From contig NZ_WTYO01000001.1 in NCBI RefSeq assembly GCF_009827515.1, positions 601,501 through 665,500 on the forward strand: 64,000 nt of DNA, written 5' to 3'. The translations under genes and the position numbers were made by a program. Each line of letters begins with the position of its first letter. Position 1 is the stretch's first letter. Shown here piece by piece: positions 1,660 to 23,661 of this stretch. Below the pieces are notes generated by a model. The model had not been told where the DNA came from, made no database searches, and was given only the letters and a program-made list of their open reading frames with translations. This DNA is from Pelagerythrobacter marinus (GTDB lineage: Bacteria > Pseudomonadota > Alphaproteobacteria > Sphingomonadales > Sphingomonadaceae).

Positions 1660-2682
1660 ATGAGGACGATGACAATGGCCCATCCTGAAACGGAAGCCGC
1701 TGTTTCGACCGCACCTGTCAGTGTGGAAGATAAGGCGGCAGATTTCGAGAATTTCCTGTTTGGCGACGAGGGCGAAGACCCCGAAGACGGGCAGGAAGAC
1801 GACCTTGAAGACGAAAGCGACCTTGAAGAAGGCGCGGACGACGACGAGGTTGAGCAGGACGACGAGGACGACGAACCGGAAGAAGAGCCGGCCATCGAAC
1901 CGCCCGTCAGCCTGAATGCGGAGGAAAAGGAGGTCTTCGCGCAGCTTCCCCCGGAAGCCCAGCGCGCTTGGGCCGACAGTGAAACCCGCCGCAACACTCA
2001 GGTCCAGGAAGCGACCACCAAGGCGAGGGATGCCCAGCGACAAGCCGAACAGGCCGCAGCATCCGCAAATCGCCAGGCCGAGGCGCGCTATGCCGAGCAA
2101 CTTAAGGAGTTCACCAAGGCTTTCGAGCCGCAGGCTCCCGACCCCGCCCGGTATAATGACATTCAGGCATACCAGCGCGACAAGGCCATCTACGACCACG
2201 CGAAAGCCCAGCATGACGAACTTATGCAGCAAATCGCGACGGTCGGCGTCGAGACGGACGAGATGAAGGTGGAGCGGATCAAGGCCCGCAACGCTGAAAT
2301 CGAAAAGCTCCCGATTTATACGGAGGCTGAGGACAAGAAGGCACTGGTCGATGCGGCCATGTCTGTCGCGGCTGAGTTCGGTTACGACCTAGCCGAGCTG
2401 GCGGACAACATGGACGCGACCGATTTCAATGCCCTCGCGACCTTTGCGAAGTATAAGAAGGACAGCGAAGAACTGGCGCGGATCAAGGCCAGGTCGAAAG
2501 AACGCCGTCGCGACAAGAAAACGGGGAAATTCAAGTCCCTGAAGCCCGGCGCAGGCTCCCAGCCCTTGGGCAGGGCCGCGAAGGCCAAAAAGTCATGGCA
2601 GCGCGTAAAGGAAGCGAGCGGCAACCGTGCTGCTCAAGCCGACGCGATGGCCGATTGGCTTGAGGCTGCGGGCCACCTCTGA
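1660..2682 (+). CDS. Phage capsid scaffolding protein
   Basis: A 340-residue protein directly upstream of the coat gene, the usual place for a scaffold. Residues about 25-85 are extremely acidic (runs of D and E), the middle is Gln/Ala-rich coiled coil, and the C-terminal 60 residues are very basic (KERRRDKKTGKFKS), typical of the coat-binding tail of P22-like scaffolds. An in-frame second ATG lies at 1675. Scaffolds guide procapsid assembly and then leave. No protease motif is visible, so release without cleavage is likely but unproven. Confidence 0.8.
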   Translation: MRTMTMAHPETEAAVSTAPVSVEDKAADFENFLFGDEGEDPEDGQEDDLEDESDLEEGADDDEVEQDDEDDEPEEEPAIEPPVSLNAEEKEVFAQLPPEAQRAWADSETRRNTQVQEATTKARDAQRQAEQAAASANRQAEARYAEQLKEFTKAFEPQAPDPARYNDIQAYQRDKAIYDHAKAQHDELMQQIATVGVETDEMKVERIKARNAEIEKLPIYTEAEDKKALVDAAMSVAAEFGYDLAELADNMDATDFNALATFAKYKKDSEELARIKARSKERRRDKKTGKFKSLKPGAGSQPLGRAAKAKKSWQRVKEASGNRAAQADAMADWLEAAGHL

Positions 2683-2698
2683 GTAGGTTTCACTTCAC

Positions 2699-2712
2699 CA
2701 CGTCGAGAGACG
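2699..2712 (+). other. Small hairpin with GAGA loop upstream of the coat gene
   Basis: ACGTC-GAGA-GACGT forms a 5-bp stem (extendable with flanking bases) closed by a GNRA-type tetraloop. It sits 50 nt before the coat start, in the only sizeable gap of the head operon. A role in stabilising or processing the coat mRNA is an inference. Confidence 0.4.
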
Positions 2713-2761
2713 TTGACCCTCCCAATACGCGGCTGCGGCCGCAACAGATGGAATTTTCACT

Positions 2762-3739
2762 ATGGCTGTTCCTACCAATACGATCCAGGCGGTCGGGCGC
2801 GTTGGCGTCCGCGAAGACCTGTCCGATAAGATCTACGAGCTGTTCCCCGACGACTGCCCGTTCCAGCGCTCCATTGGGCGCGAGGACGCAAAGCAGGTCT
2901 ACCACGAATGGCAGACCGACGCCCTCGCCGCTGCGAATGCGGAGAACAAGACGCTTCAGGGCGATGACCTCGCCAACGAGGCGCGTCCGAACACCGTCCG
3001 TCAGGGTAACTACACCCAGATCATGAAGAAGGTGGTTGGTTCGTCCACCACGATGGAGGCCTCGCGCACTGCGGGCCGCCGTTCGGAGCTTGCCCGCGAA
3101 GTCATGAAGGCGGGGCGCGAACTGAAGACCGACGCCGAAAAGCGTTTCTGCGGCAACTACGCTGCTGTGCCGCCGGCCTCGGGCACTGAAGGTGAAACCG
3201 CTGGCGCGCTGGGCTTCCTCGTGACGAACAACGACATGGGGGCGACCGGCACCGCGCCGACCTATTCGGGGGGCGGCACCTCCGGTTACGTGAACGCCGC
3301 TGCTGGCAACGGCACGCTGCGCGACCTGACCGAGACGCTGTTTGCCGATACGCTGGCGGATATCTGGGCCGCTGGTGGCAACCCGACCATGGCGCTCATG
3401 TCGATGTCGCTGAAGCGCACGGCGGCTCGGTTCGCGGGAATCGCGCCCCAGCGTCACGCTGTCACGTCCTCGGCTGCCACTATCGTGGCCGGTGCCGAGG
3501 TTTACGACGGCGATGCGGGCCGGGTGCAGCTTGTGCCCTCACGCTTCACCTCGACCCGTGACGTTCTGGTGATCGACCCGGAATACTGGGCGGTTGCCGA
3601 GCTGGACCCGATGAAGACCATCGACCTGGCGCAGACCGGCCTGGCGAAGCGCAAGGCGCTTTATCAGGAAGTGGCGCTCGTTTGCCGCAACGAAGCGGCC
3701 AGCGGTGCGATCCGCGACGTTCAGGCTGTGGCGGCCTGA
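2762..3739 (+). CDS. Major capsid protein, SU10/DUF5309-like
   Basis: A 325-residue protein following the scaffold, with the feel of the DUF5309 (phage SU10-type) major head protein family. The N-terminus reads VREDLSDKIYELFPDDCPF, where such proteins have a conserved 'layer' of short acidic/aromatic residues. A long middle region with E/K helices precedes a C-terminal beta-rich half ending VCRNEAASGAI. It should build the HK97-fold shell. No strong Shine-Dalgarno sequence is visible before the ATG, yet the reading frame, length and position all fit. Confidence 0.85.
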   Translation: MAVPTNTIQAVGRVGVREDLSDKIYELFPDDCPFQRSIGREDAKQVYHEWQTDALAAANAENKTLQGDDLANEARPNTVRQGNYTQIMKKVVGSSTTMEASRTAGRRSELAREVMKAGRELKTDAEKRFCGNYAAVPPASGTEGETAGALGFLVTNNDMGATGTAPTYSGGGTSGYVNAAAGNGTLRDLTETLFADTLADIWAAGGNPTMALMSMSLKRTAARFAGIAPQRHAVTSSAATIVAGAEVYDGDAGRVQLVPSRFTSTRDVLVIDPEYWAVAELDPMKTIDLAQTGLAKRKALYQEVALVCRNEAASGAIRDVQAVAA

Positions 3740-20765: not shown

Positions 20766-20773
20766 TTCAATAG
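20766..20773. repeat. Target-site duplication, left copy
   Basis: TTCAATAG, identical to the 8 bases at 22,596-22,603 on the other side of the insertion element. An 8-bp duplication is what IS1595-family transposases produce. Confidence 0.95.
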
Positions 20774-20792
20774 GGGAATTATATACTTGACT
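20774..20792 (+). repeat. IS1595 terminal inverted repeat, left
   Basis: GGGAATTATATACTTGACT; the reverse complement is found at 22,577-22,595 without mismatch. Confidence 0.93.
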
Positions 20793-20802
20793 TCCCATCC
20801 TC

Positions 20803-20934
20803 CTAATCCTGCTTCTTTCGGCGACGCTTCACGCGGCGTTCGATCTTCTTCGCCTGCTGGCCTTTGTCGGCAGGTCGGTAAGCCATCACCTTGTCGGTTA
20901 CAGCGTCGAGTATTTGCTTGATGCGTTCGGTCAT
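20803..20934 (-). CDS. IS passenger ORF: 43-residue basic peptide
   Basis: Begins MTERIKQILDAVTDKVMAY and ends in a very basic run (KKIERRVKRRRKKQD), suggestive of nucleic-acid binding. Its ATG overlaps the stop of the preceding passenger gene (ATGA). It is the last gene before the left terminal repeat. A longer in-frame version from 20997 has no support. Confidence 0.6.
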   Translation of the reverse strand: MTERIKQILDAVTDKVMAYRPADKGQQAKKIERRVKRRRKKQD

Positions 20935-21242
20935 TCTTCCCGCTCCTTTGCCAGGAAAGAGGCAGGACAACCATGCATTGAGTGACGCGCAGGGCATTGC
21001 TCAATGCGCTGGCGAAGGCTGGCGATCTCCGCCGCCGCTTGTCGGATTAGTCCATAGGCAACATCGCGCTCTTCATCTCCCCCAAGGGGATTTTCCCAGC
21101 ACAAGTCCACGAACTCCAATAGGCGAGTTTCTAAGGCCACAGTTCTGCCGAACCTCGCTGCCTTGTGGCGCTCCCAAGCCGCGTCAATCATCGCGGTTTC
21201 CTTCTCGGTCAAAGGCCGGTTTTCATCGTTCGTATTATTCAT
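20931..21242 (-). CDS. IS passenger ORF: 103-residue phage-like protein
   Basis: A charged helical protein (PLTEKETAMIDAAWERHKAARFG ..., AAAEIASLRQRIEQCP) whose ATG overlaps the transposase stop by 4 nt. The C-terminal helix with three Cys and LRQRIEQ is typical of small phage early proteins of unknown role. Being inside the terminal repeats, it travels with the element. Confidence 0.7.
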   Translation of the reverse strand: MNNTNDENRPLTEKETAMIDAAWERHKAARFGRTVALETRLLEFVDLCWENPLGGDEERDVAYGLIRQAAAEIASLRQRIEQCPARHSMHGCPASFLAKEREE

Positions 21243-22159
21243 GCGATCAACTCCGCGTAGGTGATGCGCCGCCCAATGGCTGCACTGAACAGCCGCTCAA
21301 GGCGTTGCATGGTGTGATGGCTCACATCGCCGTCACCAAGGCGGAAAGCGAACTCTCCGACATAGCGATGCAGATGCTTCGGGCTTGCGTGGTGATAGAC
21401 CCCGTGCAGACCGCGCTTGAGCAACGCGAACACGCTCTCAATGCCGTTCGTGGTCACATCGCCTCGCACATACTCGCCAGCGGAATGGTTGATGCGCTCA
21501 TGCTTGTAGAGCAGCCCGCCGACGCGGTTGTAGATCGCACTTTCGTCAGTGTGGATGGTCGAGCCGACTTGAACATGGCGACTAGTGAAGCCGTTGGCAT
21601 TGCGGCCCGTGACAGTATCGCGGACTTCTGCCTTGACCTGTCCGCTCTCGCGTTCGCGGCCAGCGATCACGGCAGTCTTACCGACACCGCCACGCCCCAG
21701 CTTGAGACGCTTGCTTTCGTGCTTCGCGGACTCTTTGCCGCCAATGTAGCATTCGTCGATTTCGACCGTTCCTGCCAGTTCAGTAGGGTCGTTGCCGCAG
21801 GCTTCGCGCAGCCGTTGAAGCATGAACCAAGCGGTCTTTTGCGTGACGCCGATCTGCGCGTGAAGCTGGACGCTGCTGATACCCTTGCGAGCCGTGACGA
21901 GCAGATACATGGCGTAGAGCCATTTGTGCAGCGGCACCTTGGACCGCTCGAAAATCGTGCCCGTGCGGACGGTGAAATCGAGCAAACAGGCGTTGCAGCG
22001 GTAGAAGCCGCCTTTGCGCGTTCCGATGCGTTCCGCCTCGCCACAAGCGGGGCAGGTGGCCCCGTCAGGCCAGCGTCGCTCCTCGAAATAGGCGCGGGCG
22101 CTCTCCTGATCGGGGAACATCTGAAACAGTTCGAAAGTGGAGATGGTCGATTTGCTCAT
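21239..22159 (-). CDS. IS1595-family transposase
   Basis: A 306-residue DDE transposase. The N-terminus carries a zinc ribbon (CPACGEAERIGTRKGGFYRC and a following C). The catalytic domain has EIDECYIGGKE, IHTDESAIY and, near the end, GIESVFALLKRGLHG, which supply the acidic residues of the ISXO2-like/IS1595 family. The start overlaps the upstream passenger stop by one base and the stop overlaps the downstream passenger start by four, so expression is coupled. The reading frame is intact. Confidence 0.93.
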   Translation of the reverse strand: MSKSTISTFELFQMFPDQESARAYFEERRWPDGATCPACGEAERIGTRKGGFYRCNACLLDFTVRTGTIFERSKVPLHKWLYAMYLLVTARKGISSVQLHAQIGVTQKTAWFMLQRLREACGNDPTELAGTVEIDECYIGGKESAKHESKRLKLGRGGVGKTAVIAGRERESGQVKAEVRDTVTGRNANGFTSRHVQVGSTIHTDESAIYNRVGGLLYKHERINHSAGEYVRGDVTTNGIESVFALLKRGLHGVYHHASPKHLHRYVGEFAFRLGDGDVSHHTMQRLERLFSAAIGRRITYAELIA

Positions 22160-22509
22160 TACGCAACTCCTTGTTCGCGCAACGCGTCACGAGCGATAGC
22201 TTTTGATGCGGCGCAGCAATCAACATCGGCAACGATTGCCGCCAGCGCTCCACGGTAATGGAGTAGCGCGTCCGCTGCGGAACGATGCTTTATAGATGAC
22301 ATATCACCTGTATCTTCGAGATTGGGTTGATATGTCATTCGCCATTCCTCATTGAGCCTTTCAATCTTCCGCATCGCGGACGCGTAAGTCTCATGGCAGG
22401 AAACTAGCGATCCATCGAGCCTATCCCAAACCTGATGATAGCGGAACCGAGCGGTATAGCCTTTCTCATATTCATAACGAACCGGCATGGTATACGGACT
22501 TTGTCCCAT
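22159..22509 (-). CDS. IS passenger ORF: 116-residue protein
   Basis: First gene of the element, 86 nt inside the right terminal repeat, with a strong AAGGAG ribosome site before the ATG at 22509. The sequence is aromatic-rich at the N-terminus (VRYEYEKGYTARFRYHQVW) and helical afterwards, with two adjacent Cys (DVDCCAASK). No family recognised. A regulatory or transposition-helper role is conceivable from its fixed place before the transposase. Confidence 0.7.
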   Translation of the reverse strand: MGQSPYTMPVRYEYEKGYTARFRYHQVWDRLDGSLVSCHETYASAMRKIERLNEEWRMTYQPNLEDTGDMSSIKHRSAADALLHYRGALAAIVADVDCCAASKAIARDALREQGVA

Positions 22510-22556
22510 GTTTTTCTCCTTTTCTTTAGCGGCTTACCCGCCCGATAAGAAGATAG

Positions 22557-22868
22557 CTACCCTATCTGTTTTCGGGAGTCAAGTATATAATTCCCTTCAA
22601 TAGCATCCCATGCAGACTGGATGCACTCTCCGTCAGCTTCGTTGGGAACGGGCCAGTCAGCGGGGATTTGTGGACCACCATCCTGTAAGCATTCAGCCGG
22701 TATAAGAAGTGCGAGTTCCTCTTTCGCGCATTGGAGTGCCGCTGCCGACTCCCGCAACGCCGCTGCCTGAGCTTCGATGCGATCACACAGTTCGTCAATC
22801 GTTACGCTGTGCGGATCGTCCTGGCCGCTCGCCAGAAAGCGGGCGCGCTCTACCAGTTTATCCTTCAT
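22557..22868 (-). pseudogene. Phage gene interrupted by the IS1595 element (5' part)
   Basis: Codons 1-91 (MKDKLVERARFLASG ... SAWDAIE) are phage sequence; the frame then runs 12 codons into the insertion element and stops at 22557. The real 3' end is at 20,724-20,765. The uninterrupted product is a 104-residue helical protein with two predicted coiled stretches (IEAQAAALRESAAALQCAKEE). A truncated product of nearly equal length (103 residues) is still made, so function may not be fully lost. Confidence 0.8.
22577..22595 (+). repeat. IS1595 terminal inverted repeat, right
   Basis: Exact reverse complement of the left terminal repeat; the adjoining TTCAATAG at 22,596-22,603 is the second target-duplication copy. 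Confidence 0.93.
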
Positions 22869-23618: not shown

Positions 23619-23661
23619 TCTCGGTGTAAACGAGATGCTCTACCAACTGAGCTAACCGCCC
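23619..23661 (-). pseudogene. 5' half of tRNA-Val(TAC) at the right prophage junction (attR)
   Basis: On the minus strand the acceptor 5' strand GGGCGGT, a normal D arm (TAGCTCAGTTGGTAGAGCA) and the anticodon arm TCTCG-TTTACAC-CGAGA (anticodon TAC, Val) are intact. The following sequence (AGACAGCCGCC...) provides neither a T arm nor the 3' acceptor strand ACCGCCC. The break at the anticodon arm marks the probable recombination point of the prophage. The complete gene or the missing 3' half should be at the left prophage end. Confidence 0.75.

Follow-up and report, generated by a model that had tools for sequence, protein, structure and literature searches.

The 64,000-nucleotide stretch of the Pelagerythrobacter marinus genome analyzed here (hereafter the window) contains, at 20774–22595, an intact insertion sequence (IS) element of 1822 bp belonging to the IS1595 family. 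Comparison with its relatives leads us to read it, with a probability of about 0.6, as an intact and probably recent insertion of a phage-associated IS1595 lineage that acts as a chassis for cargo genes. Such a chassis would keep constant both of its ends, the transposase, a short leader in which there is probably a promoter, and a basic peptide with coupled translation, and the cargo genes would occupy slots amid these parts and be swapped at gene boundaries by recombination. The nearest relative, locus L003 from Novosphingobium marinum, has a transposase 98% identical to that of the window and retains leader, transposase and peptide. DNA homology between the two elements is restricted to the leader (element positions 1–83), the transposase gene (438–1359, 90%) and the peptide gene (1661–1801, 85%), with unrelated DNA in both slots and a different open reading frame (ORF) between transposase and peptide.

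The element and its four-gene operon

The terminal inverted repeats, GGGAATTATATACTTGACT, lie at 20774–20792 (plus strand, the 3' end of the operon) and 22577–22595 (minus strand, its 5' end) and are complementary at 19/19 bases, or at 21/22 when lengthened. They are flanked by exact copies of an 8-bp target-site duplication, TTCAATAG, at 20766–20773 and 22596–22603. A search of the window for further exact 14-bp inverted ends, 0.7–6 kb apart and flanked by an exact 8-bp repeat, found no second pair, and 50 base-shuffled windows contained none. Perfect 19-bp ends and an 8-bp duplication had been claimed in an earlier reading of this DNA (the sequence-only reading) and both hold to the base; its bounds of 20766–22603 took in the two target-site copies along with the element proper. 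Allowing two mismatches at most, the end sequence is present once per orientation in the 3.0-Mb genome, and the element is therefore single-copy there. Searches with DNA of the element and its flanks returned no match in phage or plasmid records. The 3' end (20774–20796) is of the ...ATACTTGACT type, and L003 and several close relatives have ...ATAGATGACT; to judge from these sequences, this end of the element may have been exchanged or converted.

Four ORFs on the minus strand, overlapping by 1, 4 and 4 nt, form one operon that spans the element, exactly as had been described. The first, orf116 (22159–22509, 116 aa), lies in the gap between leader and transposase (slot A) and is followed by the transposase (21239–22159, 306 aa), by orf103 (20931–21242) in the gap between transposase and peptide (slot B), and by orf43 (20803–20934), the conserved basic companion peptide, whose frame has two starts that give either 43 aa or, opening 21 codons earlier, 64 aa.

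The transposase matches the Pfam families DDE_Tnp_IS1595 (3.4e-40) and Zn_ribbon_IS1595 (3.5e-10), in agreement with the family assignment made from the sequence alone. D135 and D205 are kept in 101/101 aligned transposases and E241 in 100/101; we take these three to be the catalytic acidic residues of the IS1595 DDE domain. The zinc cysteines C36, C39, C55 and C58 are kept in 98–101 of the 101. No match to an ATPase-helper family, the mark of a module of the IS21/IstB type, was found among the element's four genes. In its IS1595 DDE domain with intact DDE residues, N-terminal zinc ribbon, single transposase gene and 8-bp duplication, the element resembles the family as set out in a published description (PMC8101967), where the zinc ribbon is given as typical of all IS1595 groups except IS1016; the clade described here differs in adding a clade-wide companion peptide and cargo slots.

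Interchangeable cargo and a conserved peptide

Relatives were collected with the transposase as query, taking the best 80 of 583 bacterial matches and the best 80 of 256 viral (IMG/VR) matches, and loci were added from 98 genomes including the source genome, 28 of which contain a match (the best, source genome excluded, being 45% identical). A transposase match is present in 191 of the 192 loci, three of which (L001, L002 and L163) are the window itself. Complete elements, defined by matching ends and an exact 8-bp duplication, number 109 with the window included, and the relatives share the end type and 8-bp duplications of the window element; the other 82 loci are without a complete element (contig ends, lost or altered duplication) and stand outside all element counts. 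Six of the 109 are identical copies, leaving 103 distinct elements, 60 with a transposase at least 58% identical to that of the window and 43 below this value.

Twenty pairs of different insertions whose transposase genes are 85–93% identical were compared (members recur among the pairs; not counted are five same-insertion pairs and six lines stemming from a duplicate record). In 18 of the 19 pairs comparable upstream of the transposase, at most 21% of the cargo DNA is shared, one of these pairs (L120/L137) still having cargo related at the protein level; in the remaining pair (L086/L087) the cargo is shared. The stretch downstream of the transposase is similar in 17/20 pairs. Clustering the 101 cargo ORFs of the 60 distinct elements gives 95 clusters, six of which are each common to two elements. 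The element of L084 is 1308 bp long, with matching ends and an exact duplication, and apart from the transposase and the peptide has just a 41-residue ORF.

These comparisons bear on the earlier suggestion that the partners of the transposase are perhaps needed for transposition or for life inside phages. Taken as a four-gene module, every partner having co-evolved with the transposase and being required for transposition, it would suit the tight overlaps, the one probable promoter and the conserved peptide, but the genes of slots A and B are missing in the nearest relatives and L084 is complete with only the three genes just named; already contradicted for orf116 and orf103, such a module is highly improbable. 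What stands of the suggestion is the single operon that fills the element, the peptide, tied to the clade, and the prophage home of the element, whereas orf116 and orf103 are swapped.

Whether the passengers always co-occur with this transposase had been put forward as a check: close relatives whose ends match are without both orf116 and orf103, so that the two are implied, though not proven, to be dispensable. No match to orf116 was found in IMG/VR contigs or INPHARED, and, as far as searched, it has no credible relative outside its own genome. For orf103 there was no INPHARED match and, in IMG/VR, only a 100% match to record 2915110188, which was taken as the own-genome prophage. One weak relative of orf103 (L218, ~30% identical, with the common motif CPARxSMHGCP) was found in another genome of the host's family, where the ~3.2 kb examined contain neither a transposase nor a terminal repeat; passengers unlinked to the transposase, which the sequence-only reading had named as a point against itself, are thus represented by this locus for orf103 and by none for orf116. 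By eye, the neighbors of the L218 gene are small ORFs, one of which resembles the methyltransferase of L103. Two further candidate relatives of the cargo were rejected as chance, one (L219) having a frame interrupted by stops and the other (L221) a short match within a long unrelated frame. Because the closest relatives are without both ORFs and a weak relative of orf103 lies away from any transposase, orf116 and orf103 are, on this sequence comparison, interchangeable cargo. They would be small accessory genes without a part in transposition, the phage or the lysogen being the more probable beneficiary.

In the subclade of the window (15 elements) the first ORF starts at element position 87–106, and in 14/15 the last upstream ORF ends somewhere from 8 nt inside the transposase gene to 9 nt ahead of its start. 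Other members have the transposase as first gene and the cargo behind it. An alternative is that the element is an ordinary IS with neutral, trapped passenger DNA of no benefit, its finds in phages reflecting common AT-rich sites and prophages. Fast turnover would likewise be produced, the cargo ORFs are mostly small and unnamed, orf116 and orf103 are nearly free of relatives, and intergenic insertion is marked in one bacterial assembly too. Set against this are the cargo starts and stops of the subclade, the several cargo ORFs that are full-length enzymes and the four proteins headed by the N-terminal part of the peptide; the conserved peptide itself would be left unexplained, and on balance we consider neutral passengers rather unlikely.

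When 100 representatives out of 119 cargo clusters were scanned, the matches covered 16 Pfam families, each from a single ORF, as well as 56 PHROG and 98 PADLOC families, one ORF being able to match several; some of the 100 ORFs match phage families. Named cargo includes DNA methyltransferases (L008, L014, L026 and L103) together with Mom-like, PAPS-reductase-like and HNH proteins. The L103 methyltransferase has relatives in 655 of the 50,697 INPHARED phage records, and the cargo proteins of L138 and L004 have no match in the same 50,697 records. Judged by length and place, one seven-member cluster among the 143 cargo ORFs, which is not part of the 58% group, is made up of whole or fragmentary transposases. 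The PADLOC models matched include restriction enzymes, type II methyltransferases, SspD and PD-Lambda-2_C, and L026 joins an EcoRI-type methylase with a GmrSD_N/HNH protein; both observations would suit cargo made up of anti-phage defense or restriction genes, benefiting the host or lysogen against other phages and not helping the phage. These are few ORFs, however, L026 lies outside the 58% group, methyltransferases (one with its 655 phage-record relatives) equally suit counter-restriction, and no such gene was seen in the window's own cargo, so that we hold this account of the cargo to be unlikely.

The companion peptide was traced with a hidden Markov model (HMM) seeded with the 43-aa sequence and applied to ORFs downstream of the transposase only, which detects it in 62/109 elements. 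Counted over distinct elements, it is present in 57 of the 60 at or above 58% transposase identity, window included, and in 1/43 below this value, 22 of the 43 being copies in one assembly. The three elements of the upper group without an HMM match are L105, L136 and L014, in the last of which the motif is visible by eye. Alignment A2 revealed a core, LDxIxDxVLxYRPK, followed by a basic stretch. Pooled over 284 non-independent pairs, restricted to those with a transposase synonymous difference of 0.05–0.62, the proportions of nonsynonymous and synonymous differences (pN and pS) are 0.33 and 0.63 for the peptide, the transposase means being 0.17 and 0.55; because changes are fewer at amino-acid than at silent sites, the peptide is conserved as amino acids. 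AlphaFold2 predicts two helices, at residues 3–18 and 24–42, with a mean predicted local distance difference test score of 87. Only noise-level matches were returned from PHROGs (best E 0.06), NCBIfam (0.04), Pfam (0.01) and PDB sequences (0.25), and the peptide was found in no other of 397 genomes of the host's family among the matches listed (at most 17 candidates scored per genome). Since the peptide is tied to the transposase clade in 57/60 distinct elements, it likely has a role in the element's own life, as far as sequence can indicate. Its most likely partner would be the transposase or the ends of the element; it could be a small regulator, for instance, or a helper that binds DNA.

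The transposase stop lies within ATGA, where the peptide gene often starts, in 39/60 elements, and the peptide stop falls inside the last 19 bp, that is within the terminal repeat, in 33/58. In four elements the N-terminal part of the peptide is fused ahead of a larger protein, matching DNA_methylase in L008, N6_N4_Mtase in L014 (peptide motif by eye), Beta_protein in L012 and P63C in L023. The positions of the two stops and the running of peptide N termini into cargo enzymes could also be explained if the constancy of the peptide were that of a device for translation coupling or termination and not of a functional protein. That explanation appears quite unlikely in view of the pN and pS values, the constant core and the retention of the peptide in a 457-bp element without a transposase (L212, see below).

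Phage association, insertion sites and leader

Among the matches listed, transposases at least 72% identical to that of the window come from 13 viral and 4 bacterial loci (two partial), and those at least 58% identical from 79 viral and 19 bacterial loci. In a quick transposase tree of 82 rows, from which transposases below 43% identity, most CATOTD01 copies and identical proteins were excluded, the window and L003 fall in a 15-row group with a Shimodaira–Hasegawa-like approximate likelihood ratio test (SH-aLRT) value of 98, nested in a 60-row clade (SH-aLRT 96) of 48 viral and 11 cellular rows plus the window. Of the 80 viral loci, 50 records were tested with three profiles and 31 carry a terminase or portal gene: the phrog_2 terminase in 26, a portal in 4 of the other 24, and Terminase_6N over the cut-off in one more. 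IS1595 has been reported among the elements in some saliva single-virus genomes, the origin of which is called uncertain in that study (PMC5869506). A paper linking IS1595 and Aeromonas phages was set aside, as it concerned host genomes (PMC9145550). No description of the clade or the peptide was found in the open-licence PMC literature among the matches listed. In the gammaproteobacterial assembly CATOTD01, 27 loci among L027–L066, 23 of them complete elements of 1451–1459 bp, have transposases ~55–57% identical to that of the window and are read as a burst in a cell genome; in one of these loci, L029, a 93-residue downstream ORF replaces the peptide.

Within the window, phage structural, DNA ejection, tail spike and endolysin genes are found at 1–19 kb. 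A 25-mer of tRNA-Val occurs at 582.2 kb of contig 8, inside an intact tRNA-Val gene, and again at 625.1 kb (window 23619–23643), without an intact tRNA. Because the two copies flank the element 42.9 kb apart, the arrangement fits a prophage of ~43 kb, near whose right end, at a distance of ~1 kb, the element lies. A small prophage gene (22604–22868, minus strand) lost its last 13 codons through the insertion; read by hand, its frame resumes across the joined flanks. No empty insertion site was found in the 397 genomes of the family, where the search returned the element's own two flanks and, beyond these, just two matches no longer than 30 bases. The record IMGVR_UViG_2915110188_000001 (L193; 40,428 bp) matches at 100% and stops inside the element at orf103, and the provirus prediction behind it seems to have split the element in two. 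The insertion in the window is probably recent.

The transposase would move the whole operon by DDE chemistry into A+T-rich, often intergenic sites. Insertion sites were judged with our own rough gene caller at the 49 viral loci with enough flank, out of 53 complete viral elements. The insertion is intergenic in 27 of the 49, against 4.0 expected from a coding cover of 92%; four rows repeat the insertion of another record, and 24/45 are intergenic without them (by hand). In the viral loci, 332/392 duplicated bases are A or T.

A -35-like TTGACT, the probable -35 of the operon, lies inside the 5' terminal repeat (22577–22582, minus strand). In 15 relatives with the transposase as first gene, a -10 matching at least 4/6 bases is found at a distance of 15–19 nt in 10, against 6.6% at random places, and the sequences make it probable that a promoter is located in the element's end with its -35 within the terminal repeat. 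In several cargo-first elements (L107, L110, L132, L156 and others) a second ACTTGACTCCC-like stretch with promoter-like sequence was seen by eye 40–90 bp inside the 5' end. The first gene of the window element has an AAGGAG ribosome site (22516–22521, minus strand), and TATCTTCT (22548–22555, minus strand), conserved in the window's subclade, is able to pair with it in read-through RNA according to leader alignment and predicted folding. The mean pairing probability of the ribosome site over the 15 subclade leaders is 0.77, compared with 0.53 (standard deviation 0.05) for shuffles (z 5.0), and falls to 0.35 over the 15 elements for RNA from position 49, the presumed own start; the values for the window leader are 0.80 and 0.02, respectively. 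These folding models predict that in this subclade only, the leader shields the first gene from outside transcription. It would hide the first ribosome site in RNA entering from phage genes and leave it more open in RNA from the element's own start; expression would therefore stay with the element's own weak promoter.

Several observations weigh against a phage-associated chassis, or against parts of it. By the three profiles, 19 of the 50 IMG/VR records are without a hallmark gene. Only 3 of 50,697 INPHARED records match the transposase, all below 35% identity, and no isolate phage with a close relative was found there; consequently, the phage link rests on the IMG/VR contigs and the prophage of the window. 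The lineage occurs in bacterial genomes too, and since a phrog_2 terminase lies on the same contig in only 1 of 17 bacterial genomes with a relative, the lineage is phage-associated but not claimed to be phage-exclusive. Intergenic insertion was likewise in excess outside phages, in 13/28 loci (3.9 expected) of a group that is mostly one gammaproteobacterial assembly, in 4/15 (1.3 expected) of the other bacterial loci and in 5/19 (1.9 expected) of the distant loci, these groups overlapping. Because the same excess is seen there, the preference reads as a property of the element, either a choice of A+T-rich targets or the survival of harmless insertions, and not as phage adaptation. The majority of the cargo is without a named family, most of the 100 ORFs lacking a Pfam name because the 16 Pfam families were matched by one ORF each, and of the window's own cargo orf116 is without a credible relative and orf103 has one weak one.

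The leader is subject to similar reservations. The possible -10 of the window, TAGCTA (22554–22559, minus strand, 17 nt from the -35), which occupies the position seen in the transposase-first relatives, is weak, with 2/6 consensus bases. Kinship among the 15 leaders makes the z of 5.0 too generous, and in four of them the site stays paired (at least 0.65) from position 49 as well. As a general trait the hairpin was rejected: no excess pairing was found in leaders outside the subclade, and the means are 0.67 against 0.61 shuffled in 41 cargo-first leaders (subclade included) and 0.62 against 0.68 in seven transposase-first leaders, and for this reason the hairpin is claimed for the subclade only.

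The link between peptide and transposase is not absolute either. With the peptide as query, 22 viral contigs were found, 13 of which also have the transposase (truncated in L199 and L205); of the remaining nine, four (L194, L203, L207 and L215) have the peptide at most ~310 bases from the record end, and at least five records have a peptide without a transposase, namely L212, L206 and one place in L211, L213 and L214. Judged on their sequences, these loci look like elements after loss of the transposase. L212 contains at 1475–1931 an element of 457 bp with ends, an 8-bp duplication (by hand), a small ORF and an intact peptide, which has probably moved in trans. In L206 (2495–3413) and in L211, L213 and L214 (~2258–3614) the peptide lies together with end-like sequences, and the 2.5 kb upstream contain no transposase; in L211 a short stretch resembling an element, and having inverted ends of its own, is present as two near-copies. 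At L199 (2078–2653) a shortened transposase reads in frame into the peptide between terminal repeats.

Relation to known mobile elements and phage genes

Transporter ISs and passenger-bearing IS1595 members carry genes unrelated to transposition. The element described here is alike in being an IS-like element with such genes, and differs in that its cargo is operonic with the transposase and swapped at gene boundaries between close relatives. Phage morons are small accessory genes of phages, freely gained and lost; the cargo genes resemble them in their free addition and loss, and the L103 methyltransferase in its many phage-record relatives, but here the genes ride in a transposon with its own transposase. 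Two-component transposition modules such as IS21 use the ATPase helper IstB, whereas the partner found here is a 43-residue peptide with noise-level matches only and no ATPase match. IS10 is protected from outside promoters by folding of its leader. The leader of the ISPpu9 transposase mRNA folds to control translation, according to its description (PMC8450116). As in these two elements, folding of the 5' leader is predicted here to limit translation, although folding statistics from one subclade are what the present case consists of.

A further step, which we regard as possible but less likely than not, would make the lineage a phage-adapted shuttle, a chassis with its promoter in the end and a dedicated 40–50-residue partner, in which small accessory genes, methyltransferases among them, are dropped into slots, co-expressed with the transposase and spread among phages, the N terminus of the peptide sometimes serving as a tag on a cargo enzyme. 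To our knowledge, compact phage genomes seldom carry insertion sequences. If the reading is true, phages would gain a transposition route for the exchange of accessory genes, beside homologous and illegitimate recombination, and the peptide, family-less in the libraries searched, would offer a direct handle on the workings of these small elements.

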